DNA of 64,000 nt, from contig NZ_JAPJZK010000001.1 in the NCBI RefSeq assembly GCF_026309355.1, positions 372,001-436,000 on the forward strand. Direction: 5' to 3'. The notes below the pieces were generated by a model, which was given only the letters and a program-made list of their open reading frames with translations, did not search any database and was not told the DNA's origin. The first letter of the stretch is position 1. The number at the start of each line of letters is the position of its first letter. Source of the DNA: Spartinivicinus marinus (lineage in GTDB: Bacteria > Pseudomonadota > Gammaproteobacteria > Pseudomonadales > Zooshikellaceae). Positions 1,876 through 25,953 of this stretch are shown one piece after another. A program made the position numbers and the translations under genes.

Positions 1876-1933
1876 AACTATACTCACTTATTCCCTTTAT
1901 TTTATACTTAGAATTAATAATCTAAAAAAACCT

Positions 1934-4396: not shown

Positions 4397-4485
4397 GATT
4401 GTGCAGCAGGAATGGTTCAGTGCAAATATTTAACATACTGCTACTGTGCTCAAATTAATGAGCACTACTCACATATAGCTCAATG

Positions 4486-4532
4486 CAAATACCCTCTACC
4501 TCAGGGTGAGGGGGTAGCGCTAGCTACAAGCC
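4486..4532. repeat. Second small intergenic repeat (CCTC-rich/GAGG-rich hairpin with AGCGCTAGC)
   Basis: ACCCTCTACCTCAGGGTGAGGGGGTAG followed by the palindrome-like AGCGCTAGC recurs in the array spacers near 16240-16305 and 16462-16580. Related CCTC/GAGG hairpins occur at 9698-9742, 9824-9865 and 16117-16157. It is a different unit from the 95-bp palindromic element but travels with it. Coding is not supported here. Confidence 0.6.
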
Positions 4533-4582
4533 GGTTACGAAATAACATTATATTAATCAATAAAGTTCAGGCTGATTCAATT

Positions 4583-6943
4583 ATGCTAAAACAAACGAAT
4601 TATAAACTTTATAGTTCATTGGTTTCTTTTTTTTCTTTATGTTTACTTTGCTGCAATACTATAGCAAGTAATCTTATTGACTTTGGTAGTGAAAATCTAA
4701 ATCTCAAGATTGAATATGTAAAAGCACATAATCTATTCAGTTGGATGGGCGATGGTGGCTGTGGAGGAACTGGAGGGCCAGTTTTTGAATTGCTAGGAAT
4801 CTCAATAAAAAAGCATGGAGACTTTGAACTCACATTAATGGATAGTAAACCTAAAGCATTTATATTTAGTTTCACTAATATGCAAAAAATAAAGAATTTA
4901 AATGAATATAATAAAATAAAAAACACATACAACAATTTAAATTTTCTATCAGAGAAAAAGCATTGCAACAAAGACATATCTATGAAAATTGATAGTTTTC
5001 TTATAAAAAAAGGAGACTTTAATGGTGATAACTTAACTGACTTAGTAGTAATTGTTACACACCCATCCTTTCTAGGGCGAGCTTTAGTTTTTCCTAGTTT
5101 TGAGTTAAATAGACATAAACTAGTTACTTCATCAATTGCATCAGACAACTACACATTAAATAACATACCTATAGATATTTCAGGGATAACAAAATTTGAT
5201 AGATTTACCAACATCACCATCCAAGACCGCAACAAAGACGGCCGCGATGACCTACTAATCACCCGCCCTGGCGCACCAGGCTTAATCGCCTTTGCCGCCC
5301 CCGACGGTAGTTTCCCTAAAGCTGAAGTCGATACTGGTATTGGCAAATACAACGGTCCGTCCTTATATAAAAGCCGCTTTTGCAACCGTGCTTTGTTAAC
5401 CCAGCACCCAGACGAAAACCCGTCAACGGTGTTATTTGATGATGTTTGTCGTACGGCTTATGTGAGCCCACCCGCCACGGGCACCACCGAAGTGACGGCA
5501 TTAACCCCTAACCCTGATAATGCCGTCTTTTGCCCTAAGTTAGCATCAGCTCAAACCAATCAAACGGAACTACTAAAAGAACTAGGGCAAGCCAACACTA
5601 AATTTAAAACCATTATGGGTAGTCTACCCCATGATACCCAACTAGTGGCGTATGCCGATAAACGAGAACAAGCTTTTAATGATTTAGTCGCCGCTGAGCA
5701 AGCCGAAGCAGCGATACGTAAAACCGTATTATCCCAACGACGAACTATTGGCCAGCTGGAATTAGACGTAGAAGATTGTGCGTTATTAGGCACTGATTGT
5801 AATACGGCGCAAGATCAACTTAATGCTGCCAAACAAACCCTAACCCAGTTATTAACCGAATTAGATGCCGCTGTCGAAGCCCGGCTAGTTAAACAGCAAT
5901 TGTATGACCAAGCCTATGATGCCTATGGCGAAGCCTTAGATAACTATTTAACTGTTGATACAGAGTTAGCTGCGTTAATTGAGGAGTTTAAAGCCCTACA
6001 AGATAAAGAATTAGCGTTATATCGAGAATTTGCGGGCTTAGAAGGCGCTACCGCACAGATTCACTATCAATGGGATTGGGCTGAACAAGTTAGTCTTTAT
6101 CAAGCTTTAAACCAACAGTTAAAAATGCAATGGCAACCCTTACCAGTGACTGGTGCTAAAATACTGGCAGAATTACAGGAAAAGCCCGAAACCCCATTAG
6201 GGGATAAAGCCATTACCCTACCGGCCGTCTTGTATACCAGCATTGATCAGCAAAATAATGATGTACAAATCAATGGCTATGAAACGGCATTAATGCCTAA
6301 AGGCGATGCAGTAATAACCAGCACTTTACGCAAAGAGCCATCCAGCCCGATTAGTTTACCCAGTAAAATTAACGGCACTATTGGTTTGAGTTTGGCGGGT
6401 TATTGTCCTTTTGCGCCCAGTGCTAATCAACCTCAACCGGTAGAAAACCTAGCCGCACACTTAACCCCACACATTCAGTATGAATACGAAGAGCAAATTA
6501 AACGAGGTTATACCGCGAAATATAAACTGGATACCTTCGTCAAAACCATTGTCCGCACCAAGAAAAAGAAAAAATGGTTTAAAAAGAAGAAAAAAACCTA
6601 TATCGAACGGAAGGTCATTACCAAGGATTGGTTTGATATCAACTTCGACGCTACCAGCGGTGAATACGCCTACTCCCCTGCTGAACAGGATCAAATTACC
6701 CGCGAAGTGAAATCGGATCTAGTCAGACGAGTGAATACCGCTATTGGCGCCTTATATGCCGATAACAGCCAATGCCAGCAAAATACAGACTGTAGTTATG
6801 GTTACTGGTTAGGTCAACTTACTGGCAACAATGACGACACTATAGCCATCCAACAATTTAAACAAGGGAATTCCAAATGGGTAGAAGAAGTCGTATACGG
6901 CATTCGTTATCGACCTAAAACAGGTTGGGTAGGGTTTAGGTAG
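4583..6943 (+). CDS. Array copy 3: exported variable-N/constant-C protein
   Basis: 786 aa from the ATG at 4583, which opens a signal-peptide-like segment (LYSSLVSFFSLCLLCCNTIAS). The in-frame extension to 4412 is rejected because it would translate the intergenic repeat. The variable domain contains an unusual Gly-rich GDGGCGGTGG run near residue 55, a Cys in KKHCNK, and the FG-GAP loop GDFNGDNLTD just before the constant module at D215. The constant module carries small differences from its sisters (GAPGLIAF for GAPDLIAF, ISLYQALNQ-type variants). There is no shared promoter/leader and no clear SD. Function unknown; predicted exported. Confidence 0.85.
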   Translation: MLKQTNYKLYSSLVSFFSLCLLCCNTIASNLIDFGSENLNLKIEYVKAHNLFSWMGDGGCGGTGGPVFELLGISIKKHGDFELTLMDSKPKAFIFSFTNMQKIKNLNEYNKIKNTYNNLNFLSEKKHCNKDISMKIDSFLIKKGDFNGDNLTDLVVIVTHPSFLGRALVFPSFELNRHKLVTSSIASDNYTLNNIPIDISGITKFDRFTNITIQDRNKDGRDDLLITRPGAPGLIAFAAPDGSFPKAEVDTGIGKYNGPSLYKSRFCNRALLTQHPDENPSTVLFDDVCRTAYVSPPATGTTEVTALTPNPDNAVFCPKLASAQTNQTELLKELGQANTKFKTIMGSLPHDTQLVAYADKREQAFNDLVAAEQAEAAIRKTVLSQRRTIGQLELDVEDCALLGTDCNTAQDQLNAAKQTLTQLLTELDAAVEARLVKQQLYDQAYDAYGEALDNYLTVDTELAALIEEFKALQDKELALYREFAGLEGATAQIHYQWDWAEQVSLYQALNQQLKMQWQPLPVTGAKILAELQEKPETPLGDKAITLPAVLYTSIDQQNNDVQINGYETALMPKGDAVITSTLRKEPSSPISLPSKINGTIGLSLAGYCPFAPSANQPQPVENLAAHLTPHIQYEYEEQIKRGYTAKYKLDTFVKTIVRTKKKKKWFKKKKKTYIERKVITKDWFDINFDATSGEYAYSPAEQDQITREVKSDLVRRVNTAIGALYADNSQCQQNTDCSYGYWLGQLTGNNDDTIAIQQFKQGNSKWVEEVVYGIRYRPKTGWVGFR

Positions 6944-7175: not shown

Positions 7176-7308
7176 ACAAAGTTACCACTTACTTATTTTC
7201 TAGCGAATTAATTCTACGTAAAATTACTAATAAAAATTCGACTATTCACTAAAAGGCAATTGTCTTATAATGGCCCGCCAATTTTGTCGTAATAAAAGGT
7301 GTTTATTC
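7176..7308 (+). promoter_or_regulatory. Shared array promoter/leader of copy 4
   Basis: A conserved block (GAATTAATTCTACGTAAAAT, then CTATTCACTAAAAGGCA) leads to a perfect TATAAT at 7266-7271, 37 nt before the ATG at 7309. The -35 is weak (TTCACT or TATTCA, depending on spacing). An AAAGGTG Shine-Dalgarno lies upstream of the start. Homologous blocks precede copies 5, 6, 7 and the relic. Confidence 0.65.
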
Positions 7309-9657
7309 ATGGTAAGGAAGCTTCTATTAATCATTGCCTGCTTTAACTCATTTTCTGTTTTTTCCCAAGAGATAATTTTTGACTTTAAGCCAGGAAAGTT
7401 TAACCTTAGCTTCAGGTATATCGAATTTTATGAAACAATTATAGGGAGAGGATGCTATAGCTTTCCTGCTGTTAAGCTCTCTGAAATAGCTATTGGCAAA
7501 GATATTAAAAAATTCAAGCTTACTCATGCATTTAATCCTTTCAAAAAAACATCTCCAGTTATAAACAACGCTCTTACAATTAGAAAAATTGTTAACGAAA
7601 GTTTATGGAATGAGAGTGATTGGTTGAAATCAGGACTAATTTATTCATATAAGAAATTACTATTCAGATGCGACAAAAGCAAGTACACGGAGCAAACACA
7701 CGGATTTAAGCAATATTTTGGGAATTTTAATGGAGATAATCTTGGAGATATGATAGTAGTTTATGACGATAAATTTATAAAAAATAGAGCTTATGTTTAT
7801 TTGGGGTTTAACCCCAGTCATATAAGCTACAAACCTCATCCTTTATCTGAAGGTAGTTTCGTTTATAACGAGTTAAATAACTTCTATGAGATAACAGACT
7901 TGTTTAGTGCTGGGGCTACTAATTACAACATCACCATCCAAGACCGCAACAAAGACGGCCGTGACGACCTATTAATCACCCGACCAGGTGCTCCCGATTT
8001 AATCGCCTTTGCCGCCCCTGATGGTAGTTTCCCCAAAGCCGAAGTGGATACCGGTATTGGTAAATACAACGGCCCGTCCTTGTATAAAAGCCGCTTTTGT
8101 AACCGTGCCTTCTTAACCCAGCACCCCAATGAAAACCCATCCACGGTATTATTTGATGATATTTGCCAAACCGCTTATGTGAGCCCACCGGCAACGGGCA
8201 CGACTGAAGTGACAACATTAACCCCTGATCCTGACAATGCCACCTTTTGCCCTAAATTAGCAACGGCTCAAACCAATCAAACGGAACTACTAAAAGAGCT
8301 AGGTCAAGCTAATACGAAATTTAAAACCATTATGGGTAGCTTGCCTCACGATGACCAGCTAATGACGTATGAAGCTAAACGAGAGCAGACTTTTAATGAT
8401 TTAGTCGCCGCCGAGCAAGCCGAAGCAGCGGTGCGCAAAACGGTGTTATCTCAACGACGAACTATTGGCCAGCTGGAATTAGACGTGGAAGATTGTGCGT
8501 TATTAGGCACCAACTGTAATACAGCACAGAGTCAATTAACCACAGCCCAACAAACCTTAACCCAATTATTAACTGAATTAGATGCCGCTGTCGAAGCCCG
8601 GCTAGTTAAACAAAAATTGTATGACCAAGCGTTTGATGCTTATGGCGAAGCCTTGGATAACTACTTAACCGTAGATACTAAATTAGCTGCGTTAATTGAG
8701 GAGTTTAAAGCCCTACAAGATAAAGAATTAGCGCTTTATCGGGAATTTGCTGGTTTAGAAGGCGCCACCGCGCAAATTCACTATCAATGGGATTGGGCTA
8801 ACCAGGTTAATCGCTATCAAGCTTTAAACCAGCCATTAAAAATGCAATGGCAACCCTTACCAGTGACTGGTGCTAAAATACTGGCGGAATTACAGGAAAA
8901 GTCCGAAACCCCATTAGGGGATAAAGCCATTACCTTACCGGCCGTCTTGTATACCAGCATTAATCAGCAAAATGATGTACAAATCAACGGCTATGAAACG
9001 GCATTAATGCCTAAAGGCGATGCAATAATAACCAGCACTTTACGCAAGGAGCCATCCAACCCGATTAGTTTGCCTAACAAAATTAACGGCACTGTTGGTT
9101 TGAGCTTAGCGGGTTATTGCCCTTTTGCGCCCAGTGCTAATCAGCCCCAACCGGTCGAAAACTTAGCGGCTCACTTAACCCCACACATTCAGTATGAATA
9201 CGAAGAGCAAATTAAACGAGGTTATACCGCGAAATATAAACTGGATACCTTCGTCAAAACCATTGTACGCACCAAGAAAAAGAAAAAATGGTTTAAAAAG
9301 AAGAAAAAAACCTATATTGAACGGAAAGTCATTACCAAAGATTGGTTTGATATCAACTTCGACGCTACCAGTGGTGAATACGCCTATTCCCCCGCTGAAC
9401 AGGATCAAATTACGCGTGAAGTAAAGTCTGATTTAGTGCGTCGAGTCAATACGGCTATTGGCGCCTTATATGCCGATAACAGCCAATGCCAAGCAAATAA
9501 AGACTGTAGCTATGGTTATTGGCTAGGTCAGTTAACGGGTAATAACGACGACACTAAAGCCATCCAACAATTTAAACAAGGTAATTCCAAATGGATGGAA
9601 GAAATCGTGTATGGGATTCGTTATCGTCCCAAGACCGGTTGGGTGGGGTTTAGATAA
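7309..9657 (+). CDS. Array copy 4: exported variable-N/constant-C protein
   Basis: 782 aa. The ATG at 7309 is preceded by AAAGGTG and starts the signal peptide MVRKLLLIIACFNSFSVFSQ, nearly the same as in copy 7. The variable domain has a Cys in GRGCYSF and another in LFRCDKS, probably a disulfide pair, then the FG-GAP loop GNFNGDNLGD. The constant module starts at D212. Its nucleotide sequence around 8191-8400 matches copy 6, while that around 8875-9060 matches copy 2, which is a mosaic pattern. A hairpin terminator follows at 9774. No enzymatic motif is seen; an adhesin, matrix or effector-type role is possible but unproven. Confidence 0.88.
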   Translation: MVRKLLLIIACFNSFSVFSQEIIFDFKPGKFNLSFRYIEFYETIIGRGCYSFPAVKLSEIAIGKDIKKFKLTHAFNPFKKTSPVINNALTIRKIVNESLWNESDWLKSGLIYSYKKLLFRCDKSKYTEQTHGFKQYFGNFNGDNLGDMIVVYDDKFIKNRAYVYLGFNPSHISYKPHPLSEGSFVYNELNNFYEITDLFSAGATNYNITIQDRNKDGRDDLLITRPGAPDLIAFAAPDGSFPKAEVDTGIGKYNGPSLYKSRFCNRAFLTQHPNENPSTVLFDDICQTAYVSPPATGTTEVTTLTPDPDNATFCPKLATAQTNQTELLKELGQANTKFKTIMGSLPHDDQLMTYEAKREQTFNDLVAAEQAEAAVRKTVLSQRRTIGQLELDVEDCALLGTNCNTAQSQLTTAQQTLTQLLTELDAAVEARLVKQKLYDQAFDAYGEALDNYLTVDTKLAALIEEFKALQDKELALYREFAGLEGATAQIHYQWDWANQVNRYQALNQPLKMQWQPLPVTGAKILAELQEKSETPLGDKAITLPAVLYTSINQQNDVQINGYETALMPKGDAIITSTLRKEPSNPISLPNKINGTVGLSLAGYCPFAPSANQPQPVENLAAHLTPHIQYEYEEQIKRGYTAKYKLDTFVKTIVRTKKKKKWFKKKKKTYIERKVITKDWFDINFDATSGEYAYSPAEQDQITREVKSDLVRRVNTAIGALYADNSQCQANKDCSYGYWLGQLTGNNDDTKAIQQFKQGNSKWMEEIVYGIRYRPKTGWVGFR

Positions 9658-10985: not shown

Positions 10986-13394
10986 ATGGTAAGGAAGCTT
11001 GTTGTATTACTTAGTTTGACTTTATTTTTCTCTTCTAAAACCGCTGCTAGTACAGATCATATTATTGATTTCCAACCATCTTCAATTAATATTTATGAAA
11101 GATATAAACTGAGTTACTGGTACACTTCTCCTCTTTCTGGTAGCCCAGGGCCATGCATGAATAACCCAGAACACTGGGGTACATATTCTAATATTTATAT
11201 CACACAAGAAAATACAAACTTCAACTATGTAATACAAACAACTTCTATGGGACCGCCTGGAAATTTATTGAGTGGATATTATTCATTTTATATTTTTGAA
11301 GGCAACACTTATTTTAATGAAAGCTTGAAGCTTTGGAAGATAAATAATACTGGAACCATATATAATGAGAAATGCAATGGGGATATAGATGAAGTCAAAA
11401 AAAATCCAGGCAAGTCATACTATGCCGACTTTAATGGAGATAACATAACAGATCTCCTATACATAACGAAACATAGCTCACACCACCAAAAAGCACTGAC
11501 TTTTTATAGCCAAAAACTTAATAACATAGAGTTAAAAAAGTTTCCTGCTGGGCATAGTTTTATCTCTATAGGACACCAGCATCATGAAAATGTTAAGAGA
11601 AACTACCAAGGTCCTGTAGTACTTGATATTTCTAAATTAATAACTGATTGGTCAAATGTTACTATTAATATCATAGATCGCAACAAAGACGGCCGCGATG
11701 ACCTATTAATCACCCGCCCTGGCGCTCCTGATTTAATTGCCTTTGCTGCCCCCGATGGTAGTTTCCCTAAAGCCGAAGTCGACACTGGCATAGGCAAATA
11801 CAACGGCCCTTCTCTATATAAAAGCCGCTTTTGTAACCGCGCCTTGTTAACCCAGCACCCAGAGCAAAACCCTTCAACCGTGTTATTTGATGATGTCTGT
11901 CGTACGGCTTATGTGAGCCCGCCTGCCACCGGCACCACCAACGTCACAACCTTAACCCCTAATCCTGATAATGCCGCCTTTTGCCCTAAATTAGCAACGG
12001 CTCAAACCAATCAAACGGAATTATTAAAAGAACTGGGCCAAGCCAATACTAAATTTAAAACTATTATGGGTAGCCTGCCTCACGATACCCAACTGGTGAC
12101 GTATGCTACTAAGCGGGAACAGGCTTTTAATGATTTATTAGCTGCTGAGCAAGCCGAAGCGGCGGTGCGAAAAACGGTATTATCTCAGCGACGAACTATT
12201 GGCCAGTTGGAATTGGATGTGGAAGATTGCGCCTTATTAGGCACTGATTGTAATACGGCACAAAATCAACTCAATGCAGCCCAACAAGCCTTAACTCAGT
12301 TATTAACTGAATTAGATGCCGCTGTCGAAGCCCGGCTAGTTAAACAACAATTGTATGACCAAGCCTATGATGCCTATGGCGAAGCCTTAGATAACTATTT
12401 AACGGTGGATACGGAGTTAGCTGCCTTAATTGAGGAATTTAAAACCCTGCAAGATAAGGAGTTAGCGCTTTATCGAGAATTTGCGGGGTTGGAAGGTGCT
12501 ACCGCGCAGATTCAATATCAATGGGATTGGGCTGAGCAGGTTAATCGTTATAAGCAATTAAACCAGCCATTAAAAATGCAGTGGCAGCCCTTACCGGTGA
12601 CTAGTGCAAAAATACTGGCGGAACTACAGGAAAAACCTGAAACCCCTCTCGGGGATAAATCCATTACCCTACCTGCCGTCTTGTATACCAGCATTAATCA
12701 GCAAAATAATGATGTACAAATCAATGGTTATGAAACCACTCTCATGCCTAAAGGCGATGCAATAATAACCAGCACTTTACGCAAAGCGCCCTCCACCCCG
12801 ATTAGTTTGCCGAGTAAAATCAACGGCACTATTGGCCTGAGCTTAGCCGGTTATTGCCCTTTTGCACCATCAGCCGTTCAACCCCAGCCACTAGAAAACC
12901 TAGCTGCTCACTTAACCCCACACATTCAGTATGAATACGAAGAACAAATTAAACGGGGTTATACCGCCAAATATAAACTCGATACTTTCGTCAAAACCAT
13001 TGTCCGCACTAAGAAAAAGAAAAAATGGTTTAAAAAGAAGAAAAAAACCTATATCGAACGCAAAGTCATCACCAAAGATTGGTTCGATATCAACTTCGAC
13101 GCCACCAGTGGTGAATACGCCTACTCCCCTGCTGAACAGGATCAAATTACGCGAGAAGTGAAATCGGATCTAGTCAGACGAGTGAATACCGCGATTGGTG
13201 CCTTATATGCGGATAACAGCCAATGCCAAGCAAATAAAGACTGTAGCTATGGTTATTGGCTAGGTCAGTTAACGGGTAATAACGACGACACTAAAGCCAT
13301 CCAACAATTTAAACAAGGCAACTCCAAATGGGTGGAAGAAACCGTGTATGGCATACGGTATCGACCTAAGACCGGTTGGGTGGGGTTTAGGTAG
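10986..13394 (+). CDS. Array copy 5: exported variable-N/constant-C protein
   Basis: 802 aa, the longest copy. The signal peptide is MVRKLVVLLSLTLFFSSKTAAS, with an SD 7 nt upstream of the ATG. The variable domain (about 23-228) is Tyr/Ser/Asn-rich with Cys in GPCMNN and NEKCNG. The first FG-GAP loop is ADFNGDNITD and the constant module starts at D231. The Lys patch is at about 676-690. The 3' half shares an essentially identical stretch with copy 1 (12780-12980 versus 1261-1461). Another block (12594 onward, with GTGACTAGTGCAAAAATACT) is shared only with copy 7. Role unknown; architecture suggests a secreted calcium-binding fibrous protein. Confidence 0.88.
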   Translation: MVRKLVVLLSLTLFFSSKTAASTDHIIDFQPSSINIYERYKLSYWYTSPLSGSPGPCMNNPEHWGTYSNIYITQENTNFNYVIQTTSMGPPGNLLSGYYSFYIFEGNTYFNESLKLWKINNTGTIYNEKCNGDIDEVKKNPGKSYYADFNGDNITDLLYITKHSSHHQKALTFYSQKLNNIELKKFPAGHSFISIGHQHHENVKRNYQGPVVLDISKLITDWSNVTINIIDRNKDGRDDLLITRPGAPDLIAFAAPDGSFPKAEVDTGIGKYNGPSLYKSRFCNRALLTQHPEQNPSTVLFDDVCRTAYVSPPATGTTNVTTLTPNPDNAAFCPKLATAQTNQTELLKELGQANTKFKTIMGSLPHDTQLVTYATKREQAFNDLLAAEQAEAAVRKTVLSQRRTIGQLELDVEDCALLGTDCNTAQNQLNAAQQALTQLLTELDAAVEARLVKQQLYDQAYDAYGEALDNYLTVDTELAALIEEFKTLQDKELALYREFAGLEGATAQIQYQWDWAEQVNRYKQLNQPLKMQWQPLPVTSAKILAELQEKPETPLGDKSITLPAVLYTSINQQNNDVQINGYETTLMPKGDAIITSTLRKAPSTPISLPSKINGTIGLSLAGYCPFAPSAVQPQPLENLAAHLTPHIQYEYEEQIKRGYTAKYKLDTFVKTIVRTKKKKKWFKKKKKTYIERKVITKDWFDINFDATSGEYAYSPAEQDQITREVKSDLVRRVNTAIGALYADNSQCQANKDCSYGYWLGQLTGNNDDTKAIQQFKQGNSKWVEETVYGIRYRPKTGWVGFR

Positions 13395-13589: not shown

Positions 13590-13728
13590 TCACAAAGTTA
13601 TCACTCACTTTATTTCTAACGAATTAATTCTACGTAAAATTACTAACAAAAACCCACCTATTCACTAAAAGGCATTTGTCTTATAATGGAACGATAATTT
13701 TAGACGTAATAATAAAAGGTGTTTACCT
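13590..13728 (+). promoter_or_regulatory. Shared array promoter/leader of copy 6
   Basis: Contains the GAATTAATTCTACGTAAAAT block, CTATTCACTAAAAGGCATTT and TATAAT at 13682-13687, then AAAAGGTG before the ATG at 13729. The segment after TATAAT (GGAACGATAATTTTAGACG) differs from that of copies 4, 5 and 7. Confidence 0.65.
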
Positions 13729-16110
13729 ATGCTAAGGAAGCTTGTTGTATTGTTTAGTGCAACCTTATTTTTCTCTTCTCAAATTATAGCAAACACAGAT
13801 GATGTCATTGAGTTTTTGCCTGGAAATCAAAAATTTACTTCTTCTTATTTTAAGGGTCGAATGAAAGATCCTTTGAGTAGTCTATCTGCATATGAAGAGT
13901 GTGTTTTAGGCTTAAAAGAAAGTGGTATGTTGAGCATGGGAGTTCGTCCTTATACTATCGTTAGTTATGATCTGGAACTGCTTCCAGTAAAGGAGAAAAG
14001 ATTTAGAATCGGTGAAATATTGAATTCTAATTCGCGAATAACCCCACTAGCCCACTTATTTAAAGTTACTCGCAATTATATGACAGAAAAAGAGCATAAA
14101 GAGCTCTATCCAAATACTCCAGAGCTATTCTGTGATGGGTACACATTCGAGCAGTCTAACTCAGAGGGTTTTTTTGGTGATTTTAATAATGATGGCCTAG
14201 GAGATGTCATATACCAAATAAAATATGATTATTCCCCTTACTCATTACTTATATTTTATGGTACTCAAAGTGAAATCAAAACAACTAATCTTCTTGGAGT
14301 AGGTCCAGCAAAATATGGCAAATACCCATTTGCAAAAGCACTAGAAACCATAGATGGAATATCATTAAAAAACGTAACGATTAAAGTACAAGACCGCAAC
14401 AAAGACGGCCGTGACGACCTTTTAATCACCCGCCCTGGCGCTCCCGATTTAATCGCCTTTGCTGCCCCCGACGGTAGTTTCCCTAAAGCCGAAGTCGATA
14501 CCGGTATTGGTAAATACAACGGCCCTTCTCTAGACAAAAGCCGCTTTTGTAACCGCGCCTTGTTAACCCAGCACCCAGACGAAAATCCGTCAACGGTGTT
14601 ATTTGATGATGTCTGTCGTACGGCTTATGTGAGCCCACCGGCAACGGGCACGACTGAAGTGACAACATTAACCCCTGATCCTGACAATGCCACCTTTTGC
14701 CCTAAATTAGCAACGGCTCAAACCAATCAAACGGAACTACTAAAAGAGCTAGGTCAAGCTAATACGAAATTTAAAACCATTATGGGTAGCTTGCCTCACG
14801 ATGACCAGCTAATGACGTATGAAGCTAAACGAGAGCAGGCTTTTAATGATTTAGTCGCCGCCGAACAAGCCGAAGCGGCGGTGCGAAAAACGGTATTATC
14901 TCAGCGACGAACTATTGGCCAGTTGGAATTGGATGTGGAAGATTGCGCCTTATTAGGCACTGATTGTAATACGGCGCAAAATCAACTCAATGCAGCCCAA
15001 CAAGCCTTAACTCAGTTATTAACTGAATTAGATGCCGCTGTCGAAGCCCGGCTAGTTAAACAACAATTGTATGACCAAGCCTATGATGCCTATGGCGAAG
15101 CCTTGGATAATTATTTAACAGTAGATACGGAGTTAGCCGCCTTAATTGAGGAATTTAAAACCCTGCAAGATAAGGAGTTAGCGCTTTATCGAGAATTTGC
15201 GGGCTTGGAAGGCGCCACCGCGCAAATTCAATATCAATGGGATTGGACTGAGCAGGTTAATCGTTATAAGCAAGTCAACCAACAATTAAAAATGCAATGG
15301 CAACCCTTGCCAGTGACCGGGGCTAAAATCCTCGCCGAATTGCAGGAAAAACCCGAAACCCCTCTAGGTGATAAAGCCATTACCCTACCGGCCGTCTTGT
15401 ATACCAGCATTGATGACCAAGCGGCTAACGTAAAAATTAATGGTTATGAAACAGCGTTAATGCCTAAAGGCGATGCAGTAATAACCAGCACTTTACGCAA
15501 AGAGCCATCCAACCCGATTAGTTTACCCAGTAAAATTAACGGCACTGTTGGTTTGAGCTTAGCGGGTTATTGTCCGTTTGCACCTAGTGCCAATCAACCC
15601 CAGCCGGTAGAAAATTTAGCCGCCCATTTAACCCCACACATTCAGTATGAATACGAAGAGCAAATTAAACGGGGTTATACAGCTAAATATAAACTGGATA
15701 CCTTCGTCAAAACCATTGTGCGTACTAAGAAAAAGAAAAAATGGTTTAAAAAGAAGAAAAAAACCTATATCGAACGCAAAGTCATCACCAAAGATTGGTT
15801 TGATATCAACTTCGACGCTACCAGTGGTGAGTACGCTTATTCCCCCGCTGAACAGGATCAAATTACTCGCGAGGTAAAGTCTGATTTAGTCAGGCGAGTC
15901 AATACGGCTATTGGTGCCCTATATGCTGATAACAGCCAGTGCCAACAAAATAAAGATTGCAGTTATGGCTATTGGTTAGGTCAACTTACTGGCAACAATG
16001 ACGACACTAAAGCCATCCAACAATTTAAACAAGGTAATTCCAAATGGGTGGAAGAAATCGTGTATGGGATTCGTTATCGACCTAAAACAGGTTGGGTGGG
16101 GTTTAGGTAG
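13729..16110 (+). CDS. Array copy 6: exported variable-N/constant-C protein
   Basis: 793 aa. The signal peptide MLRKLVVLFSATLFFSSQIIAN resembles that of copy 5 and an AAAAGGTG SD precedes the ATG. The variable domain has Cys in YEECVLG and ELFCDGY and ends with the FG-GAP loop GDFNNDGLGD. The constant module starts at D222. It carries a private variant (SIDDQAANVKINGYE in place of SINQQNNDVQINGYE) and a D for Y change in PSLDKSRFC. Its sequence is identical or nearly so to copy 4 around 14641-14840 and to copy 5 around 14878-15110. Function unknown, predicted exported. Confidence 0.88.
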   Translation: MLRKLVVLFSATLFFSSQIIANTDDVIEFLPGNQKFTSSYFKGRMKDPLSSLSAYEECVLGLKESGMLSMGVRPYTIVSYDLELLPVKEKRFRIGEILNSNSRITPLAHLFKVTRNYMTEKEHKELYPNTPELFCDGYTFEQSNSEGFFGDFNNDGLGDVIYQIKYDYSPYSLLIFYGTQSEIKTTNLLGVGPAKYGKYPFAKALETIDGISLKNVTIKVQDRNKDGRDDLLITRPGAPDLIAFAAPDGSFPKAEVDTGIGKYNGPSLDKSRFCNRALLTQHPDENPSTVLFDDVCRTAYVSPPATGTTEVTTLTPDPDNATFCPKLATAQTNQTELLKELGQANTKFKTIMGSLPHDDQLMTYEAKREQAFNDLVAAEQAEAAVRKTVLSQRRTIGQLELDVEDCALLGTDCNTAQNQLNAAQQALTQLLTELDAAVEARLVKQQLYDQAYDAYGEALDNYLTVDTELAALIEEFKTLQDKELALYREFAGLEGATAQIQYQWDWTEQVNRYKQVNQQLKMQWQPLPVTGAKILAELQEKPETPLGDKAITLPAVLYTSIDDQAANVKINGYETALMPKGDAVITSTLRKEPSNPISLPSKINGTVGLSLAGYCPFAPSANQPQPVENLAAHLTPHIQYEYEEQIKRGYTAKYKLDTFVKTIVRTKKKKKWFKKKKKTYIERKVITKDWFDINFDATSGEYAYSPAEQDQITREVKSDLVRRVNTAIGALYADNSQCQQNKDCSYGYWLGQLTGNNDDTKAIQQFKQGNSKWVEEIVYGIRYRPKTGWVGFR

Positions 16111-16925: not shown

Positions 16926-19262
16926 ATGGTAAGGAAGCTTCTATTAATTATTGCTTGCCTCAACTCATTTTCTATTTATGCACAAGAGGTGATTTTTGAC
17001 TATAATACAGAAAAACTAGAAATATCATTTTTATACGAAAAAACATACTCTTCACTCTTTAGAGATCGTTGTACCTCATTCGCTAGCGAGAATACAATAG
17101 TTCAGTTTATCAAGAGAACTGATAGCCATATTTATCGGTTTGGTGCTTGGTTTGATGGCCCATTTAAACCATCTAGCACTCCTTTCTTTATTAAAAACAC
17201 AACAGATTATTATGATAAAATACAGCCAAATGCAAATATTACTGTAGGAATTACAAAAAACACTCACTGTTTGGGAGATATTAAAGAAGTAACAAACTCA
17301 CTAAACAAAGTGATGTTTGGTGATTTTAATGGCGATGAATTTCAGGATATGTTGTTTAAACCACAACATTCAGCACTAAAAAACAAAATTTATGTATTTA
17401 ATAGTTTTAAAGTAAATAATCTAAAATATACAGAAATAGTACCCAGTAAAGCTTGGTTTGTCCCCGTACCTAAGTTTACCTATTTCCATGATATTTCCTC
17501 AATTGTTCCCTCCGGCTGGCAAAACGCCAACATCACCATCCAAGATCGCAACAAAGACGGCCGTGACGACCTACTAATCACCCGCCCTGGTGCCCCAGAC
17601 TTAATCGCCTTTGCTGCCCCCGATGGTAGTTTCCCTAAAGCCGAAGTCGACACTGGCATAGGCAAATACAACGGCCCTTCTCTATATAAAAGCCGCTTTT
17701 GTAACCGCGCCTTGTTAACCCAGCACCCAGAGCAAAACCCTTCAACCGTGTTATTTGATGATGTCTGTCGTACAGCTTATGTGAGCCCACCCGCCACGGG
17801 CACCACCGAAGTGACGGCATTAACCCCTAACCCTGATAATGCCGCCTTTTGCCCTAAATTAGCAACGGCTCAAACCAATCAAACGGAACTCCTAAAAGAA
17901 CTAGGGCAAGCCAACACCAAGTTTAAAACCATTATGGGTAGCCTGCCTCACGATGATCAGCTAATGACATATGAAGCTAAACGAGAGCAGGCTTTTAATG
18001 ATTTAGTCGCCGCCGAACAAGCGGAAGCCGCGGTACGTAAAACGGTGTTATCGCAACGGCGGACTATAGGTCAGCTGGAATTAGACGTAGAAGATTGTGC
18101 ATTATTAGGCACGGATTGTAATACCGCGCAAAACCAATTAACTGCCGCCCAACAAACATTAATCCAGCTATTAACTGAATTAGATGCGGCCGTTGAAGCC
18201 CGGCTAGTTAAACAACAGTTGTATGACCAAGCGTTTGATGCCTATGGCGAAGCTTTAGATAACTATTTAACCGTGGATACTGAACTTGCCGATTTAATTG
18301 AAGAGTTTAAAGCCCTACAAGATAAGGAGTTAGCGCTTTATCGAGAATTTGCTGGGTTGGAAGGTGCTACCGCGCAGATTCAATATCAATGGGATTGGGC
18401 TGAGCAGGTTAATCGTTATAAGCAATTAAACCAGCCATTAAAAATGCAGTGGCAGCCCTTACCGGTGACTAGTGCAAAAATACTGGCGGAACTACAGGAA
18501 AAACCTGAAACCCCTCTCGGGGATAAATCCATTACCCTACCTGCCGTCTTGTATACCAGCATTAATCAGCAAAATAATGATGTACAAATCAATGGTTATG
18601 AAACCACTCTCATGCCTAAAGGCGATACAGTAATAACCAGCACTTTACGCAAAGCGCCCTCCACCCCGATTAGTTTGCCGAGTAAAATCAACGGCACTAT
18701 TGGTTTGAGCTTGGCGGGTTATTGTCCTTTTGCGCCTAGTGCCAATCAACCACAACCGGTAGAAAACTTAGCCGCCCATTTAACCCCACACATTCAGTAT
18801 GAATACGAAGAACAGATTAAACGGGGCTATACGGCTAAATATAAACTGGATACCTTCGTCAAAACCATTGTTCGCACCAAGAAAAAGAAAAAATGGTTTA
18901 AAAAGAAGAAAAAAACCTATATCGAGCGCAAAGTCATCACCAAAGATTGGTTTGATATCAACTTCGACGCTACCAGCGGTGAATATGCCTACTCCCCTGC
19001 TGAACAGGATCAAATTACCCGCGAAGTAAAGTCTGATTTAGTCAGGCGAGTCAATACCGCCATTGGGGCTTTATATGCGGATAATAGCCAATGCCAGCAA
19101 AATAAAGATTGCAGCTATGGCTATTGGCTAGGTCAGTTAACGGGTAATAACGACGACACTAAAGCCATCCAACAATTTAAACAAGGGAATTCCAAATGGG
19201 TGGAAGAAGTCGTGTATGGTATTCGTTATCGACCTAAGACAGGTTGGGTGGGGTTTAGATAG
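16926..19262 (+). CDS. Array copy 7: exported variable-N/constant-C protein
   Basis: 778 aa. The signal peptide MVRKLLLIIACLNSFSIYAQ is almost that of copy 4 and a good SD is present. The variable domain has Cys in RDRCTSF and NTHCLGD, then the FG-GAP loop GDFNGDEFQD. The constant module starts at D207. The stretch just before it (SGWQNANITIQDR) resembles copy 1 (DWQNASITIQDR). The 3' half mixes blocks shared with copy 5 (around 18464-18640) and with other copies. It is the last intact copy; a decayed start of another follows at 19517. Function unknown. Confidence 0.88.
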   Translation: MVRKLLLIIACLNSFSIYAQEVIFDYNTEKLEISFLYEKTYSSLFRDRCTSFASENTIVQFIKRTDSHIYRFGAWFDGPFKPSSTPFFIKNTTDYYDKIQPNANITVGITKNTHCLGDIKEVTNSLNKVMFGDFNGDEFQDMLFKPQHSALKNKIYVFNSFKVNNLKYTEIVPSKAWFVPVPKFTYFHDISSIVPSGWQNANITIQDRNKDGRDDLLITRPGAPDLIAFAAPDGSFPKAEVDTGIGKYNGPSLYKSRFCNRALLTQHPEQNPSTVLFDDVCRTAYVSPPATGTTEVTALTPNPDNAAFCPKLATAQTNQTELLKELGQANTKFKTIMGSLPHDDQLMTYEAKREQAFNDLVAAEQAEAAVRKTVLSQRRTIGQLELDVEDCALLGTDCNTAQNQLTAAQQTLIQLLTELDAAVEARLVKQQLYDQAFDAYGEALDNYLTVDTELADLIEEFKALQDKELALYREFAGLEGATAQIQYQWDWAEQVNRYKQLNQPLKMQWQPLPVTSAKILAELQEKPETPLGDKSITLPAVLYTSINQQNNDVQINGYETTLMPKGDTVITSTLRKAPSTPISLPSKINGTIGLSLAGYCPFAPSANQPQPVENLAAHLTPHIQYEYEEQIKRGYTAKYKLDTFVKTIVRTKKKKKWFKKKKKTYIERKVITKDWFDINFDATSGEYAYSPAEQDQITREVKSDLVRRVNTAIGALYADNSQCQQNKDCSYGYWLGQLTGNNDDTKAIQQFKQGNSKWVEEVVYGIRYRPKTGWVGFR

Positions 19263-21146: not shown

Positions 21147-22130
21147 ATGAAAAAATTGTTAGCACCACTTACTCTAGCAGTTTTAGCAACCCACAGCACA
21201 ATAGGTTCTGCTGATGAGATATCTTTTTCTTACGAAGGCTTTTACCAACCTATAAAAGCTAATGTTGACAGCTATGGCAATATCTCTTTGCTCAATTACC
21301 CTACTGAATTCATAGGTAAACTTGAGTATAAGGTAATTAATTCCCCTTTATTTACCAAGGGAAAGCTTAACGCTGAAACCTGTGCTGATGTAGCAGAAAA
21401 AATAGACGTATATGAGCACTACTCAAGTGTTCCTATGCTTCAAAAGAATATTTTGAATAATATCAGAAACAACAATACACTATTACTTCATGTAACAGCA
21501 GCGCCATTCTTAACTGACCCTAAATTACATAAAACAGCTAGTCAGGCTGCTGTTAATGCCGGCATAATAAGATCAAGCTACCATATACAAAATAATATTA
21601 GTTTCAATCATTATGATGTATCTTTTGATATTGCAGATGATGCAAATATTAAACGACTAGGTAATGAGGAAGCTACTCTAAACTCATTTTCAGCCAGCAT
21701 TAATGATAACATATTGTTTGGTGGAACCAGTGCAACAGAGTTAAATGCTCTGGACTTGGCTTGCGATATATTCAATGAGAAAGTCAAGGTATCAATTGAA
21801 CTGAAAGGTTATGAGAGTAATCCTAACTTAAAAGAAACTATTCTTAGCTCAGCAGATATATACTCTATTAAAAGCTATATTGAAAGTCACCCAATTGAAG
21901 GCATTAAAGACAATAAAGCTAAGTCATATTTTCAATTAGGCCGAGCATTTGAAAATGCGGCAATCACATTATCAAACAAGGCTGACACCACCATTATTTT
22001 TAACAAACTAGTCAGCCAGGAAACGCAAACTTTAGACCTAGATAATGAGGATTTATTGGCTAATGGTATTACCAAGAAAGTGCCTGCACAACCTTATCAA
22101 GGTGAATCCTTATTAAAATATATAAAATAA
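21147..22130 (+). CDS. Exported protein of unknown function
   Basis: 327 aa with a clear signal peptide (MKKLLAPLTLAVLATHSTIGSADE) and AAGGA 8 nt before the ATG. The mature part is soluble-looking and Asn/Ser/Ile-rich, with Cys in AETCADVAEK and LACDIFNE that could form a disulfide. No domain is recognised. It is the first of three same-strand exported or anchored proteins (21147, 22224, 22809) spaced 93 and 24 bp apart, probably one operon whose last member is related to the tandem array. A linked role with the array family is inferred from position only. Confidence 0.65.
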   Translation: MKKLLAPLTLAVLATHSTIGSADEISFSYEGFYQPIKANVDSYGNISLLNYPTEFIGKLEYKVINSPLFTKGKLNAETCADVAEKIDVYEHYSSVPMLQKNILNNIRNNNTLLLHVTAAPFLTDPKLHKTASQAAVNAGIIRSSYHIQNNISFNHYDVSFDIADDANIKRLGNEEATLNSFSASINDNILFGGTSATELNALDLACDIFNEKVKVSIELKGYESNPNLKETILSSADIYSIKSYIESHPIEGIKDNKAKSYFQLGRAFENAAITLSNKADTTIIFNKLVSQETQTLDLDNEDLLANGITKKVPAQPYQGESLLKYIK

Positions 22131-22223: not shown

Positions 22224-22784
22224 ATGAATAAATTTTTCACTAGTTTTGGTGTTCTTTCAGTAAGTATTGCAGTAGGTGTTATAGCATATACAGAACTATC
22301 AGAACAAAAAGAAAAGCCGCTTGCTTCCTATAAGACGCAAGCATCAACTACCATAAAACTGCAAAACACCAAAGAAAGCCTAAACCAAGTAAAACAAACT
22401 CAAGAAGCTATTACTGACCAGAGATCCAAATCTGAGACAGTTGAAAAAAAACAACAGAAAAAAACTGAGCATATAGTTTTTGATTACGATATTTCTACCC
22501 CAGCTTCTAACATGACAGTCACAGAGCTTCGTTCTGAAATTGAAGATTTAGAGAAAATTGTTGCTGATAGCAATTTAATCAATCGACTTAACAATGGATT
22601 AGCGATAGAGGAGGAACGAACACAAGCAGGTGAACTATTTAAGCGATTAACCAGCCTGCGTTCAGCAGAACTTAAAATATTAGTAAAAGATTTTGAGAAA
22701 AAAATGGCAAAGTACGAACAAGAACATAAAGAAAGACTGGAGCGATATAAAAATAGTCCTCTAGGTGAGTACGAAGAAATATAA
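22224..22784 (+). CDS. Single-pass membrane-anchored coiled-coil protein of unknown function
   Basis: 186 aa. An N-terminal hydrophobic segment (residues 4-24, FFTSFGVLSVSIAVGVIAYTE) could be a signal anchor. A Lys/Gln/Glu-rich region and a helical stretch (TVTELRSEIEDLEKIVADS and on to the C-terminus) with heptad-like spacing predict a coiled coil. It is positioned between an exported unknown and the array-related 660-aa protein, 24 bp from the latter. No family is recognised. It might be a periplasmic scaffold for its neighbours; that is inference. Confidence 0.6.
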   Translation: MNKFFTSFGVLSVSIAVGVIAYTELSEQKEKPLASYKTQASTTIKLQNTKESLNQVKQTQEAITDQRSKSETVEKKQQKKTEHIVFDYDISTPASNMTVTELRSEIEDLEKIVADSNLINRLNNGLAIEEERTQAGELFKRLTSLRSAELKILVKDFEKKMAKYEQEHKERLERYKNSPLGEYEEI

Positions 22785-22808: not shown

Positions 22809-24791
22809 ATGAAAAAATTAGCTTTAGCCACATTAGTTGCTGCCGCCACACAAACAGCAATGGCAGTACCAACATTTAAAACTTGCGATACTAAAATCAA
22901 AGCACCGGAGCTGGGGACTGGGGTGCTTTTTGGAAACTCCTGTGACCATGCATATGTGCTTCCACCTGCGATAGGAGACGTTACTGTAACCTCTGTTGCT
23001 CCTAATGCAAACCTTGAGTTTTGTAATAGCATAGACAGCTTAACTGAAAGCAATAAAATTCTTGTCAGTTATATTGAAGATGAGGTAAAAAATTATAAAG
23101 AAAATCAAAATGAAATAGAAAAAATAGTTCATGAAAAAATGTTCGTAATTGCTAAAGAGTTAGCACCACTAGAAGCTCAAAATGAGATTATTACTAGTAA
23201 GCTTGAAGAGCAAGAAAAACTACGCACCGAAATATTGAAGGCGATAAGAACGGCAAAAACAGAATATATAGACTGTAAGGAGTCTAGTGTAGATGCCGCA
23301 ACAGAGTGTAAAGAAGAGTTAGCTATTTTTAAAGAAGAACGTAGCAAACTAAGAGATGTTAGGCGTAAAGAAACGACATTAATTAATGAAAGCTATGATA
23401 TTTCATTACAAATTAAAACTCTCACTAAAAAGATGCAAGCTGAACAGGATAAAGCTGATCAATTAAAATCCACCTCAGTTAAGTCTTTAGCTGAAATAAA
23501 CTCTTTACGTAAAATAATAATGGATACCTATAAAGAGTTTGCCTTGAAAGAAGGAATGACAGCAGGTATCACTTATGCATTACCCTGGAATGAGTTAGTT
23601 AACGAATATCAACGACTAAACCCTGGCATTAACTTCCAGGCAATACCTATCAAAGACAGTAGCTTTAAGTTTAACACCTTACAAGCAAGTTCCTTAGAAA
23701 CAGCTTTTAGGGAACTACCAGGTGCTTTGTCAGTGAGTGTTGCGGGTAAACACAGTGGTTTATTTGTGGAGCCAAATACTTTAGAAGCTCCACAAAAACT
23801 CGGTGATCAGTCTGATAAAAATATACCCTTTACTGACTCTATTTCTGGGCAAGTAAGATTAAGTTTGATGGGAGCATGTCCTCTACTTGATGATGAAGGT
23901 AATATAAAAGAGAATGCAAGCAAAGAACTACATAGCTATTTAATGCCCAATGCAGTTTTAGAATATGAGGTAAAAGTTAACAGAGGCTATAAAGCTGAGT
24001 ATAACTTATACAGAATGTATGAAAAATACATGAAAACCAAAACAAAAGGCGGTGGTTTTATCAGGCACAAGAAAAAAACTAAAGGATATGAAAACAAAAT
24101 TGTTGAAGAAGGTTTTACCATAGAATTTTTAGCTGATGGAGGTGAATTCAATTACACACCAGAGGAGCAAGCGCGTATTGCCTCAGAAGTAAAAAGCACA
24201 CTAATAAATCGGGCTGTAAAACATATTGCCACTTTTGTCGATATTCGTAAGATGGTTCCCGAGCTGCAAGAAACTACCATCACAGGTGCAGGCGTTTTTG
24301 CACAAACCTTAGCTAAAAACTGTAAATTCAAAGGGAGCGAGCCAAAAGATAAAACAGAAGAAACAACACCTGAAACTACAACAAATGGTACTGCTGAACT
24401 GGTAGCAACGCCCTCTGGTGAAACCTCAACAACAAATAACTCAGAAACCACACCCGATTCAATTAGTGAAAAGAATAAAGCTGGCTATGAATTAGCCTGT
24501 CAAGATGCTGAAAACACACCTCCTAACACTGCAGCTGGAAATAACAACGAAGCAGCTGGTGAAGTAGCAGGAGAGCTTGCTAAAACTGCAGCTTCAGCAT
24601 TAGCCTCAGGTAATTATTACGCTGCTGCTGGTGCAGCTGCTGCAGCTATTTTTATTGATACTTTTGCTTCATCTTCAACCAAAGTTTACTTCAAAGAAAC
24701 CTTAGATGTAAATTTGAAAGAAGATATTAAGGGTGTATCGTTTATTGATAGAGTAAAAACTGTCAGTTTTGCCCCTAAACTTGAGCAATAA
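22809..24791 (+). CDS. Divergent relative of the array constant module (exported coiled-coil protein)
   Basis: 660 aa with signal peptide MKKLALATLVAAATQTAMA. It matches the constant module in order: CDHAYVLPPAIGDVTVTSVAP versus CRTAYVSPPATGTTEVTALTP by position, a following coiled-coil with two Cys, YKEFALKEGMTAGITYALPW versus YREFAGLEGATAQIHYQWDW, VRLSLMGACP versus IGLSLAGYCP, LEYEVKVNRGYKAEYNLYRM versus YEYEEQIKRGYTAKYKLDTF, a basic patch (RHKKKTKG), and GGEFNYTPEEQARIASEVKS versus SGEYAYSPAEQDQITREVKS. It lacks the variable domain and DRNKDG loop and has its own Thr/Glu-rich and Ala-rich C-terminal extension (about 500-640, with a hydrophobic AAAGAAAAAIFIDTF). Identity is low, so divergence is old. 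Confidence 0.8.
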   Translation: MKKLALATLVAAATQTAMAVPTFKTCDTKIKAPELGTGVLFGNSCDHAYVLPPAIGDVTVTSVAPNANLEFCNSIDSLTESNKILVSYIEDEVKNYKENQNEIEKIVHEKMFVIAKELAPLEAQNEIITSKLEEQEKLRTEILKAIRTAKTEYIDCKESSVDAATECKEELAIFKEERSKLRDVRRKETTLINESYDISLQIKTLTKKMQAEQDKADQLKSTSVKSLAEINSLRKIIMDTYKEFALKEGMTAGITYALPWNELVNEYQRLNPGINFQAIPIKDSSFKFNTLQASSLETAFRELPGALSVSVAGKHSGLFVEPNTLEAPQKLGDQSDKNIPFTDSISGQVRLSLMGACPLLDDEGNIKENASKELHSYLMPNAVLEYEVKVNRGYKAEYNLYRMYEKYMKTKTKGGGFIRHKKKTKGYENKIVEEGFTIEFLADGGEFNYTPEEQARIASEVKSTLINRAVKHIATFVDIRKMVPELQETTITGAGVFAQTLAKNCKFKGSEPKDKTEETTPETTTNGTAELVATPSGETSTTNNSETTPDSISEKNKAGYELACQDAENTPPNTAAGNNNEAAGEVAGELAKTAASALASGNYYAAAGAAAAAIFIDTFASSSTKVYFKETLDVNLKEDIKGVSFIDRVKTVSFAPKLEQ

Positions 24792-24802
24792 AATGATATA
24801 TA

Positions 24803-24825
24803 GGCAGCCTCATGGCTGCCTTTTT
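24803..24825 (+). terminator. Rho-independent terminator after the 660-aa gene
   Basis: GGCAGCC / GGCTGCC stem with a TCAT loop followed by TTTTT. It ends only 8 bp before the next ATG at 24834, so that gene either uses an internal promoter within this hairpin region or depends on read-through. Confidence 0.85.
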
Positions 24826-24833
24826 GGTGTGTT

Positions 24834-25886
24834 ATGAATACAACTGTAGTATCTAAAACTAGTCATATTGATAATTCTTTTATCGTCAACCCAATTTATG
24901 ACTCATTTTTCTTTATCTTTTCACCCCTTATTGCATTAACACTTGGCTATTTGATCTACAAAACTGGCTGGGGTGATATTACTTTTATCTATGAAGGGGA
25001 AGAACGCTCTTTCACTAACACTTTTATTGGCAGTTTAATCATGGCTCATTTAGTGATTGTGTTTTTTAGAAGCCATGGCAACAACAGCATTGTGAAACAA
25101 TTTCCTGTTCGATTTTTTCTGATTCCTGTTATTTTATATATCAGTATGGTGTCTTCTTTATGGGTGTTGGTATGTATGAGCGTGTTAGCAACCTGGTGGG
25201 ATGTTTATCATTCGGGATTACAAACTTTTGGTTTAGGCCGTATCTATGATGCTAAGATTGGCAACAAAGCCACTGTTGGACGCAGGTTAGATTATTTTTT
25301 AAATTTATATCTTTACGCTGGCCCTATTTTAGCGGGGATCACATTAATTGATCATATTGAAGACTTTGAGGAGTTCCAAGCTGTTGGCAGTATATTTTTT
25401 ACTGCAGTTCCTGCCTATACGATGCACTATCAACGCTACCTTTTATACTTTGTTGTTGGTACTGGTATACCCTTCTTTATCTATTATTTATATGCTTACT
25501 GGCGTTATACCAAACAAGGCTATGCTGTTTCGCCACAAAAGGTCATGTTATTAGTCTCAACCGGTTTATGTTCTATTTATAGTTGGGGGTTTAATAGTTT
25601 TGGTGAAGCCTTTTTCATTATGAATTTTTTCCATGCCATCCAGTATTTTGCTATTGTCTGGCACAATGAAAAGCATAATATGAGTCGCTTATTTAGAGTA
25701 CAGAATTTGCCACTACCAAAGCTTTTTACATTAATTATATTTTTAGGATTAGCTTTTGCTTATGGTACTTGGGCTGAATTTACGTTAGCAGACAGTGATT
25801 ATATTTATGCCCTACTGATTTTAATTTCGATTTTACATTTTTGGTATGATGGGTTTATTTGGTCGGTGAGAAAAAAGCAGGTGTAA
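24834..25886 (+). CDS. Polytopic inner-membrane protein of unknown function, His/Trp-rich loops
   Basis: 350 aa with about eight to nine hydrophobic segments (for example FFFIFSPLIALTLGYLIY, FFLIPVILYISMVSSLWVL, LFTLIIFLGLAFAYG). Conserved-looking His/Trp motifs lie at membrane edges: WWDVYHSGLQTFGLGRIYD, FFHAIQYFAIVWHNEKHN and ILHFWYDGFIW. Such spaced histidines could coordinate a metal, as in membrane di-iron enzymes or Brp/Blh-like proteins, but I cannot assign a family. The start abuts a terminator and no strong SD is seen; a downstream ATG is not available early, so this start is kept. It is followed by a hairpin shared with convergent pepN. Confidence 0.6.
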   Translation: MNTTVVSKTSHIDNSFIVNPIYDSFFFIFSPLIALTLGYLIYKTGWGDITFIYEGEERSFTNTFIGSLIMAHLVIVFFRSHGNNSIVKQFPVRFFLIPVILYISMVSSLWVLVCMSVLATWWDVYHSGLQTFGLGRIYDAKIGNKATVGRRLDYFLNLYLYAGPILAGITLIDHIEDFEEFQAVGSIFFTAVPAYTMHYQRYLLYFVVGTGIPFFIYYLYAYWRYTKQGYAVSPQKVMLLVSTGLCSIYSWGFNSFGEAFFIMNFFHAIQYFAIVWHNEKHNMSRLFRVQNLPLPKLFTLIIFLGLAFAYGTWAEFTLADSDYIYALLILISILHFWYDGFIWSVRKKQV

Positions 25887-25893
25887 GGTTCTT

Positions 25894-25934
25894 TTCCCCT
25901 TAGCCCCTTTTCAAAAAAAGGGGCTAAGGGGGAG
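25894..25934. terminator. Bidirectional hairpin terminator between convergent genes
   Basis: CCCCTTAGCCCCTTTTTC-like arm pairs with AAAAGGGGCTAAGGGG through an A-rich centre, forming a long GC-rich stem between the stop at 25886 and the pepN stop at 25954. The sequence resembles one arm of the palindromic intergenic element found in the array. Confidence 0.7.
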
Positions 25935-25953
25935 AATAAATAGGTAAGTGCAA

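Follow-up and report, generated by a model that had tools for sequence, protein, structure and literature searches.

A stand-alone form of the constant module of a tandem protein array in Spartinivicinus marinus, most likely the older form of an orphan family of exported proteins

Several described systems resemble parts of the locus reported here. Polymorphic toxin systems join a constant front to a variable C-terminal toxin domain, FG-GAP / VCBS-type repeat proteins carry the repeats after which they are named, and an antiparallel helical hairpin occurs both in the B subunits of alpha-pore-forming toxins (AhlB, SmhB) and in membrane-fusion adaptors (HlyD, EmrA). We analyzed a stretch of 64,000 nucleotides from Spartinivicinus marinus (contig NZ_JAPJZK010000001.1, positions 372,001 to 436,000; hereafter the window), which contains a tandem array of proteins with the layout of polymorphic toxins reversed, the N-terminus being variable and the C-terminus constant. 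It also contains a stand-alone form of the constant module, here called the lone protein. In 10 other genomes of the order, the FG-GAP stretch of the array proteins matches open reading frames (ORFs) 330 to 3252 aa long, a likeness that is restricted to the array N-terminal region and has no counterpart in the lone protein. In the lone protein, an antiparallel hairpin similar in length to those of the toxin B subunits and of the membrane-fusion adaptors is predicted, and its head is matched in neither group. The lone and array proteins together constitute a new orphan family, for which none of the four profile libraries consulted (Pfam, NCBIfam, PHROGs, and PADLOC) has a name. Our literature search returned no publication on this family; PMC12632345 and PMC9317898 name Spartinivicinus, and neither, in the text available, bears on the lone gene.

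Seven array copies are encoded on the forward strand of the window, at 34..1875 (true start outside the window), 1829..4279 (ORF start as listed, the real start probably being an internal ATG), 4412..6943, 7270..9657, 10986..13394, 13729..16110, and 16926..19262. The variable/FG-GAP region of these proteins lies between the signal peptide and the segment that we call the N segment, and Pfam detected FG-GAP or FG-GAP_3 in all three array proteins scanned (E 1.6e-5 to 0.0074, one above the cut-off). Altogether 19 copies were found: seven in the window's own genome (G000), eight in G002 of the same genus, and four in Zooshikella harenae (G003). One of the G002 copies is broken, being split over two reading frames (L032:11528-13462 and 13488-13880). 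The constant parts of the intact copies of G000 and G002 are 89-99% identical; their variable parts, compared with the signal peptide included and the start taken from the ORF table, are 17-53% identical except for one cross-genome pair at 96%. The G003 cores are less even (65-95%). Array copies can disperse, as two of the Z. harenae copies lie on separate contigs (L043 and L044), away from the lone gene. Between the array copies of the window, the only ORF of at least 100 aa is a PIN-domain gene on the opposite strand (9877-10284, −; Pfam PF01850, E 1.7e-10), which by eye appears to be preceded by a small antitoxin-type ORF; ORFs starting like the PIN-domain protein occur twice between the G002 array copies (L032:10483-10890 and L033:4606-5013).

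The lone gene (22809..24791, +) has an ATG start and encodes an exported protein of 660 aa. Residues 1-20 (22809..22868, +) form a signal-peptide-like stretch that includes the most hydrophobic window of the protein, with a putative cleavage site. The N segment (residues 21-72; 22869..23024, +) contains the motif AYVLPPA and Cys 26, 45, and 72 and is homologous to the array; it is followed by a predicted helical hairpin arm (residues 73-247; 23025..23549, +), in which Cys 156 and 167 flank the midpoint, and by the head (residues 248-473; 23550..24227, +), the main homologous part. The tail (24228..24788, +) comprises a low-confidence, partly low-complexity stretch, an Ala-rich hydrophobic segment at about residues 598-616, and a predicted C-terminal beta hairpin at 635-656. 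Directly 3' of the gene lies a terminator-like hairpin of eight pairs, six of them G-C, followed by TTTT (24802..24821, +); the region holds four terminator-like sites against 3.2 expected in shuffles. Upstream on the same strand are genes for a 327-aa exported-type protein (21147..22130; hereafter 21147) and a 186-aa protein with one N-terminal hydrophobic helix and a charged region (22224..22784; hereafter 22224); the three genes are separated by gaps of 93 and 24 nt and are followed by the terminator-like site. Profile searches placed the lone protein in no family of Pfam, NCBIfam, PHROGs, or PADLOC, the weak matches, absent from PHROGs altogether, being mainly to coiled coil and reaching E 0.0033 at best. 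A hidden FG-GAP region was found neither by Pfam nor by alignment to the array, as the preliminary description had claimed in stating that variable domain and FG-GAP loop are absent; lacking both, the lone protein is related to the array proteins but does not belong to the array.

That description had also claimed that the 660-aa ORF is homologous to and colinear with the array constant module, and the searches bear this out. In tblastn, the lone protein matched all seven array copies of its own genome at 28-30% identity over residues 36/37-473 (E 7.8e-33 to 4.8e-31), and hhalign of four lone against 10 array proteins gave a colinear alignment of 424 columns with a probability of 100 and E 7.4e-40. 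The motifs named earlier align as well, apart from two slips: the array has GEY where the lone protein has GEF, and the Pro of LSLxGxCP is off by one column. The location of the signal was examined in 28 pairs (four lone proteins by seven of the 19 array copies), cut at common landmarks, with 300 shuffles each. All 28 pairs scored in the N segment (about 50 aa; z 8.5-15.5) and in the head (about 230 aa; z 27.6-53.1), for which hhalign gave a probability of 99.9 and E 1.9e-31 over 225 columns. The arm stayed below z 2 in 25 of the 28 pairs, with an hhalign probability of 0.3%; the exceptions were z 6.9 and 3.6 with one Zooshikella array copy and 2.3 with another. The tail reached z of at least 3 in 12 of the pairs (hhalign 11.6% and E 0.0026 over the last 30 columns). 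A first region comparison of a single pair agreed with this result. Since it is the N segment and the head, rather than the arm, that carry the signal, coincidental coiled-coil similarity was rejected as its source. Profile-profile comparison, suggested earlier as a check, thus links the two forms as wholes; it does not link their coiled coils, and it links the C-terminal tails weakly.

The arm is nevertheless close to constant in size. Between common landmarks it spans 175-176 residues in the four lone proteins and 169-173 in six array proteins, and its Cys pair is centered at 0.486-0.506 of the arm length in all 10. Judged from these sequence comparisons, what the lone and array coiled coils share is position and length, and not sequence. 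Over 60 residues counted from the [KE]YNL-type motif, K+R and D+E number 15-17 and 5-8 in the six array proteins, 11-12 and 10-15 in the four lone proteins, and 10 and 14 in a distant relative from Sinorhizobium meliloti introduced below. By this count a strongly basic patch is an array trait, and of the basic patch previously described as common to both forms, there remains in the window's lone protein a short lysine-rich run at the same site, which the Zooshikella lone proteins do not have. The array constant part and the lone protein therefore have in common a homologous N segment and head and an arm of near-equal length with a Cys pair at its midpoint; the array adds the variable/FG-GAP region, the basic patch, and a short tail (65-69 aa, against 161-187 aa in the lone proteins), and its arm cannot be aligned with that of the lone protein.

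The family was present in five of the 56 genomes searched, the own genome included; all five are Zooshikellaceae and belong to two genera. Absences are provisional in G001, G003, and G004, whose draft assemblies comprise about 160 to 410 contigs. Among 390 genomes of the order, we found five family members and 10 further matches confined to the FG-GAP part of the profile. The sample collections yielded the own genome only among 398 genomes of the phylum, the own genome and one coiled-coil-only match (G956, E 2.7e-4) among 369 genomes of the class, and no family match among phages and viral contigs. A plasmid collection searched with the array core or 21147 returned nothing further, and a genome contig collection gave no match to the single lone protein and only Z. 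harenae to an alignment query. We discounted a match to a tyrosine autokinase on a Proteus plasmid (E 0.05, residues 129-199) as due to coiled coil.

The only relative found outside Zooshikellaceae is WP_198868902.1, a 436-aa hypothetical protein encoded on the S. meliloti plasmid pAK76 (NZ_CP066360.1), which was matched by the window's lone protein (E 8e-4) and independently by a Zooshikella lone protein (E 2e-4). Like the lone protein, it has a signal-like start, a YVTPP segment, and the head (pairwise E 4e-11), and it has no variable domain. Its head compared with the lone family profile at 97.8% and E 1e-12, against 27% and 7e-4 with the array family profile, and BLAST with one array protein as query gave no match to it; four profile comparisons of unrelated pairs gave 0.1-0.2%. 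An Ala-rich stretch near its end resembles the tail of the window's lone protein (z 5.5) and not that of a Zooshikella lone protein (z 0.2), and it differs from the lone protein in its arm, which is 85 aa long and is without the Cys pair. Two hypothetical proteins with signal-like starts are encoded almost without gap after it (pAK76, L065:8801-9781 and 9792-11048); their products are unrelated to 21147 or to the lone family and are possibly partners of the plasmid form. A 418-aa neighbor was first suggested as a family member by its coiled coil and was dismissed on its profile (0.1%). Plasmids searched with the relative and this neighbor returned only the two themselves.

These comparisons bear on which form came first. 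In a tree of 16 proteins (five lone, that of G001 being partial, 10 array, and the S. meliloti outlier), the arrays form one clade (100/100) spanning both genera, and the lone and array forms are separate lineages, each present in both genera. The outlier falls on the lone side; this placement is unsure, given the weak support (66/56) and the very long branch of the outlier (2.8). The S. meliloti relative, likewise without a variable domain, supports the claim that the core came first, and the lone gene is most likely the older, single-copy form of the exported family. The earlier proposal that the variable domain was added to the core is thus supported, not proven, by a relative that lacks this domain and stands nearer to the lone proteins; the lone-core-first root rests on one very divergent protein. 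In the simplest course of events, an old lone gene would have undergone one duplication, with the variable/FG-GAP region being acquired immediately after the signal peptide; the array would then have grown and its cores would have been evened out. The reverse, in which the lone gene would be an array copy reduced by loss of the variable domain, would agree with the fast divergence of lone proteins and draws on the same weakly supported branching of the outlier; it is the least probable of the readings we considered, being at odds with a relative that is closer to the lone form and without the domain, with the separateness of two lineages that each span both genera, and with a lone gene neighborhood that is the same in all five genomes.

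This neighborhood was established by BLAST of the ORFs flanking the lone gene in G000, on one side only for G003. G001 and G002 have in common with G000 a large left gene (84% and 83%, respectively) and an aminopeptidase-like right gene (96% and 91%); G004 retains a left pair (66-78%) and a right gene (69%) in changed order; and G003 retains three genes on one side (48-74%), its contig ending before the other side. The constancy of the place, an intact lone gene without an array in G004, and changes that are mostly silent (dN/dS 0.09 for G000-G002 and 0.28 for G003-G004, the latter at a dS close to saturation) speak for the claim that the constant module is a functional unit. Against it, the G001 lone gene ends at two contig ends (L030 and L031) that have a 10-base inverted match and what appears to be the start of a transposase ORF, and it looks interrupted by an insertion element.

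The two upstream genes had been put forward as partners of the whole family, and here the evidence divides. Relatives of 21147 occur only in the three array-bearing genomes (3/3, and 0/2 without an array), and relatives of 22224 in all four genomes with an intact lone gene and not in G001; 21147 thus follows the array and 22224 the intact lone gene, in a profile of five genomes that are too few for statistics. The gene order 21147, 22224, lone gene is found in G000 and G002. In G003, 21147 lies directly upstream of the lone gene and 22224, encoded on the opposite strand, beyond it; from the side opposite 21147, two array copies point toward the lone gene. G004 has the intact lone gene and 22224, with 21147 absent and no array found; G001 lacks 21147, 22224, and the array. 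Beside the S. meliloti relative, none of the 78 surrounding ORFs matches 21147 or 22224 at E 0.1. Homology of 21147 to the lone family was rejected (hhalign 0.2%), as was homology to the S. meliloti neighbors (none found). Past the terminator-like site, gene 24834 is present only in G000 and G002 among the five genomes.

Between the array and these genes, the window encodes a 345-aa exported RHS/YD-repeat protein with a non-RHS C-terminus (19676-20713, +; RHS_core E 2.7e-4, phrog_10385 E 6.5e-7) and, directly after it, a hydrophobic 105-aa ORF (20713-21030, +); the two look like a toxin-immunity type pair. Among the five genomes, a full-length copy of the RHS-like gene is found elsewhere only in G002. 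Its synonymous distance between G000 and G002 is 0.12 against 0.52-0.73 for its neighbors, which suggests recent exchange.

The lone gene and its flanks differ in their divergence. Between G000 and G001, five flanking genes have dS 0.11-0.66 and protein identities of 87-98%, and the lone gene has dS 1.76 and 48% identity (N-terminal part only). Between G003 and G004, two flanking genes have dS 0.60-0.98 (88-95%), the 22224 relative has dS 0.71 (77%), and the lone gene dS 1.65 (48%). Between the array-bearing G000 and G002, the lone gene has dS 0.52 and 91% identity, with dS 0.40-0.70 on the left flank and 1.45-1.87 on the right. The G000-G002 (L033) divergence jumps between gene 24834 (dS 0.69) and 25954 (dS 1.45), in the span 24834-28599, and a recombination border is probably located there. 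In each genus, then, the array-bearing and the array-less genome differ by about 50% in the lone protein. The high dS suggests an exchange of old alleles through recombination, and not just fast protein change; such exchange would make the histories of gene and species differ, and the discordance with the flanks rules out a quiet, slowly evolving resident gene. The data, two contrasts only, fit a lone allele that travels with its array, and the missing array of G001 and G004 may reflect a further allelic state of the locus instead of simple loss.

A rival reading gives the lone protein an independent role, in which it is an exported or envelope protein on its own and the array arose from its copy, took up a different job, and no longer cooperates with it. 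The intact lone gene and 22224 of G004, where no array was found, would agree with this, as would the array's own tail and strongly basic patch and the lower likeness between genera of the lone proteins (28-31%) than of the constant parts of intact array copies (42-46%). However, the array at least partly adjoins the lone gene in all three genomes that have it (two of the four G003 copies being elsewhere), both forms retain the length of the arm and the place of its Cys pair, and the lone allele changes with array presence, which makes independence somewhat less likely; we regard it as a possible but secondary explanation.

An AlphaFold model of the lone protein, built on 13 sequences, has a mean pLDDT of 58.5 and a pTM of 0.41. 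It comprises a small beta segment (39-65), long helices at 67-159 and 168-245, a low-confidence region at 474-633, and the C-terminal beta hairpin. The arm helices reach pLDDT 80-93 in every ten-residue block of 91-230, suggesting an antiparallel helical hairpin that would be about 13 nm long by estimate, its tip probably capped by a disulphide (Cys156-Cys167). In the head, 17 of 22 ten-residue blocks have pLDDT 54-85 and five have 31-39; predicted alone, the head (pLDDT 48.4) was too poor for structure search. Foldseek of the whole model against PDB gave no match reaching E 0.001, and the superpositions obtained rest on the hairpin (SMC arms, chemoreceptors, the dynein stalk, HlyD, and SmhB). 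A profile search of solved structures gave coiled-coil-type matches only (best E 0.063), and the whole-model searches of PDB and viral folds yielded matches that were generic hairpins or low in TM, among them a viral one at E 8e-4 (TM 0.24, 46 Å rmsd).

Superposition of the hairpin on the B subunits of tripartite alpha-pore-forming toxins (SmhB 7a0g: Z 12.9, 3.4 Å over 172 residues; AhlB 6grj_B and 6h2f_D: 3.9 and 3.2 Å over 183 and 179 alignment columns, E 0.07-0.11) raises the idea that the array proteins are exported helical-hairpin pore-forming toxins with variable targeting, to which the lone protein, perhaps with 22224 and 21147, would be an antagonist or immunity-like factor. Variable N-terminal domains would fit changing targets, and the allelic exchange at the locus and the adjoining RHS-like gene would fit a conflict system. 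But other long coiled coils reach similar Z, with SMC arms, chemoreceptors, the dynein stalk, and HlyD superposing about equally, as is usual for long helices; the lone gene persists in G004 without an array; and a simple scan revealed no membrane-type segment in the arm, the 19-residue hydropathy windows reaching at most 0.79 in the lone protein and 0.81 in array copy 7. We consider a toxin-antagonist relationship quite unlikely.

As an explanation of the whole, we tentatively favor, at a probability of roughly 0.45, that the lone protein is an invariant envelope subunit that co-assembles with the array display proteins. The arm may act as a spacer or packing rod, since its length is nearly equal in both forms and its sequence is not kept; constant length together with midpoint Cys residues is the pattern expected of a spacer with a disulphide-capped tip. 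The shared head would be an assembly or docking domain. At the cell envelope, the lone protein would be the invariant subunit and would cooperate with 22224, a membrane-anchored protein. The array proteins would be display subunits that dock as the lone protein does and present varied ligand-binding N-terminal domains, and 21147 would serve them as an exported helper. The disulphide, docking through the head, co-assembly of the two forms, and the roles of 22224 and 21147 are what we infer from homology of the N segment and head, the kept arm length and Cys residues, the confidently predicted hairpin, linkage, mostly silent change, and lone proteins that are 91% alike between the array-bearing G000 and G002 and 48% alike between array-bearing and array-less genomes in each genus. 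Against co-assembly stand the retention of the lone gene without an array in G004, the apparent interruption of the G001 gene, arms without common sequence, which could pack differently, and the lack of a known homologue. A more specific form of the idea, which we hold to be unlikely, is a common-chain / variable-chain system in which the lone core is shared, any one of several array proteins with homogenised cores and variable fronts docks on it via arms of matched length, the product is an exported or surface complex whose recognition domains can be exchanged, 22224 and 21147 carry out the assembly, and the lone gene is swapped between strains together with the array.

Collectively, these observations turn a tandem array into a testable pair, consisting of an older core and its diversified offspring. 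If the lone and array proteins co-assemble, the locus would be an uncommon bacterial case in which exchangeable recognition domains are combined with a shared subunit; if they do not, it would illustrate cleanly how a domain was gained after a signal peptide and an array then grew.
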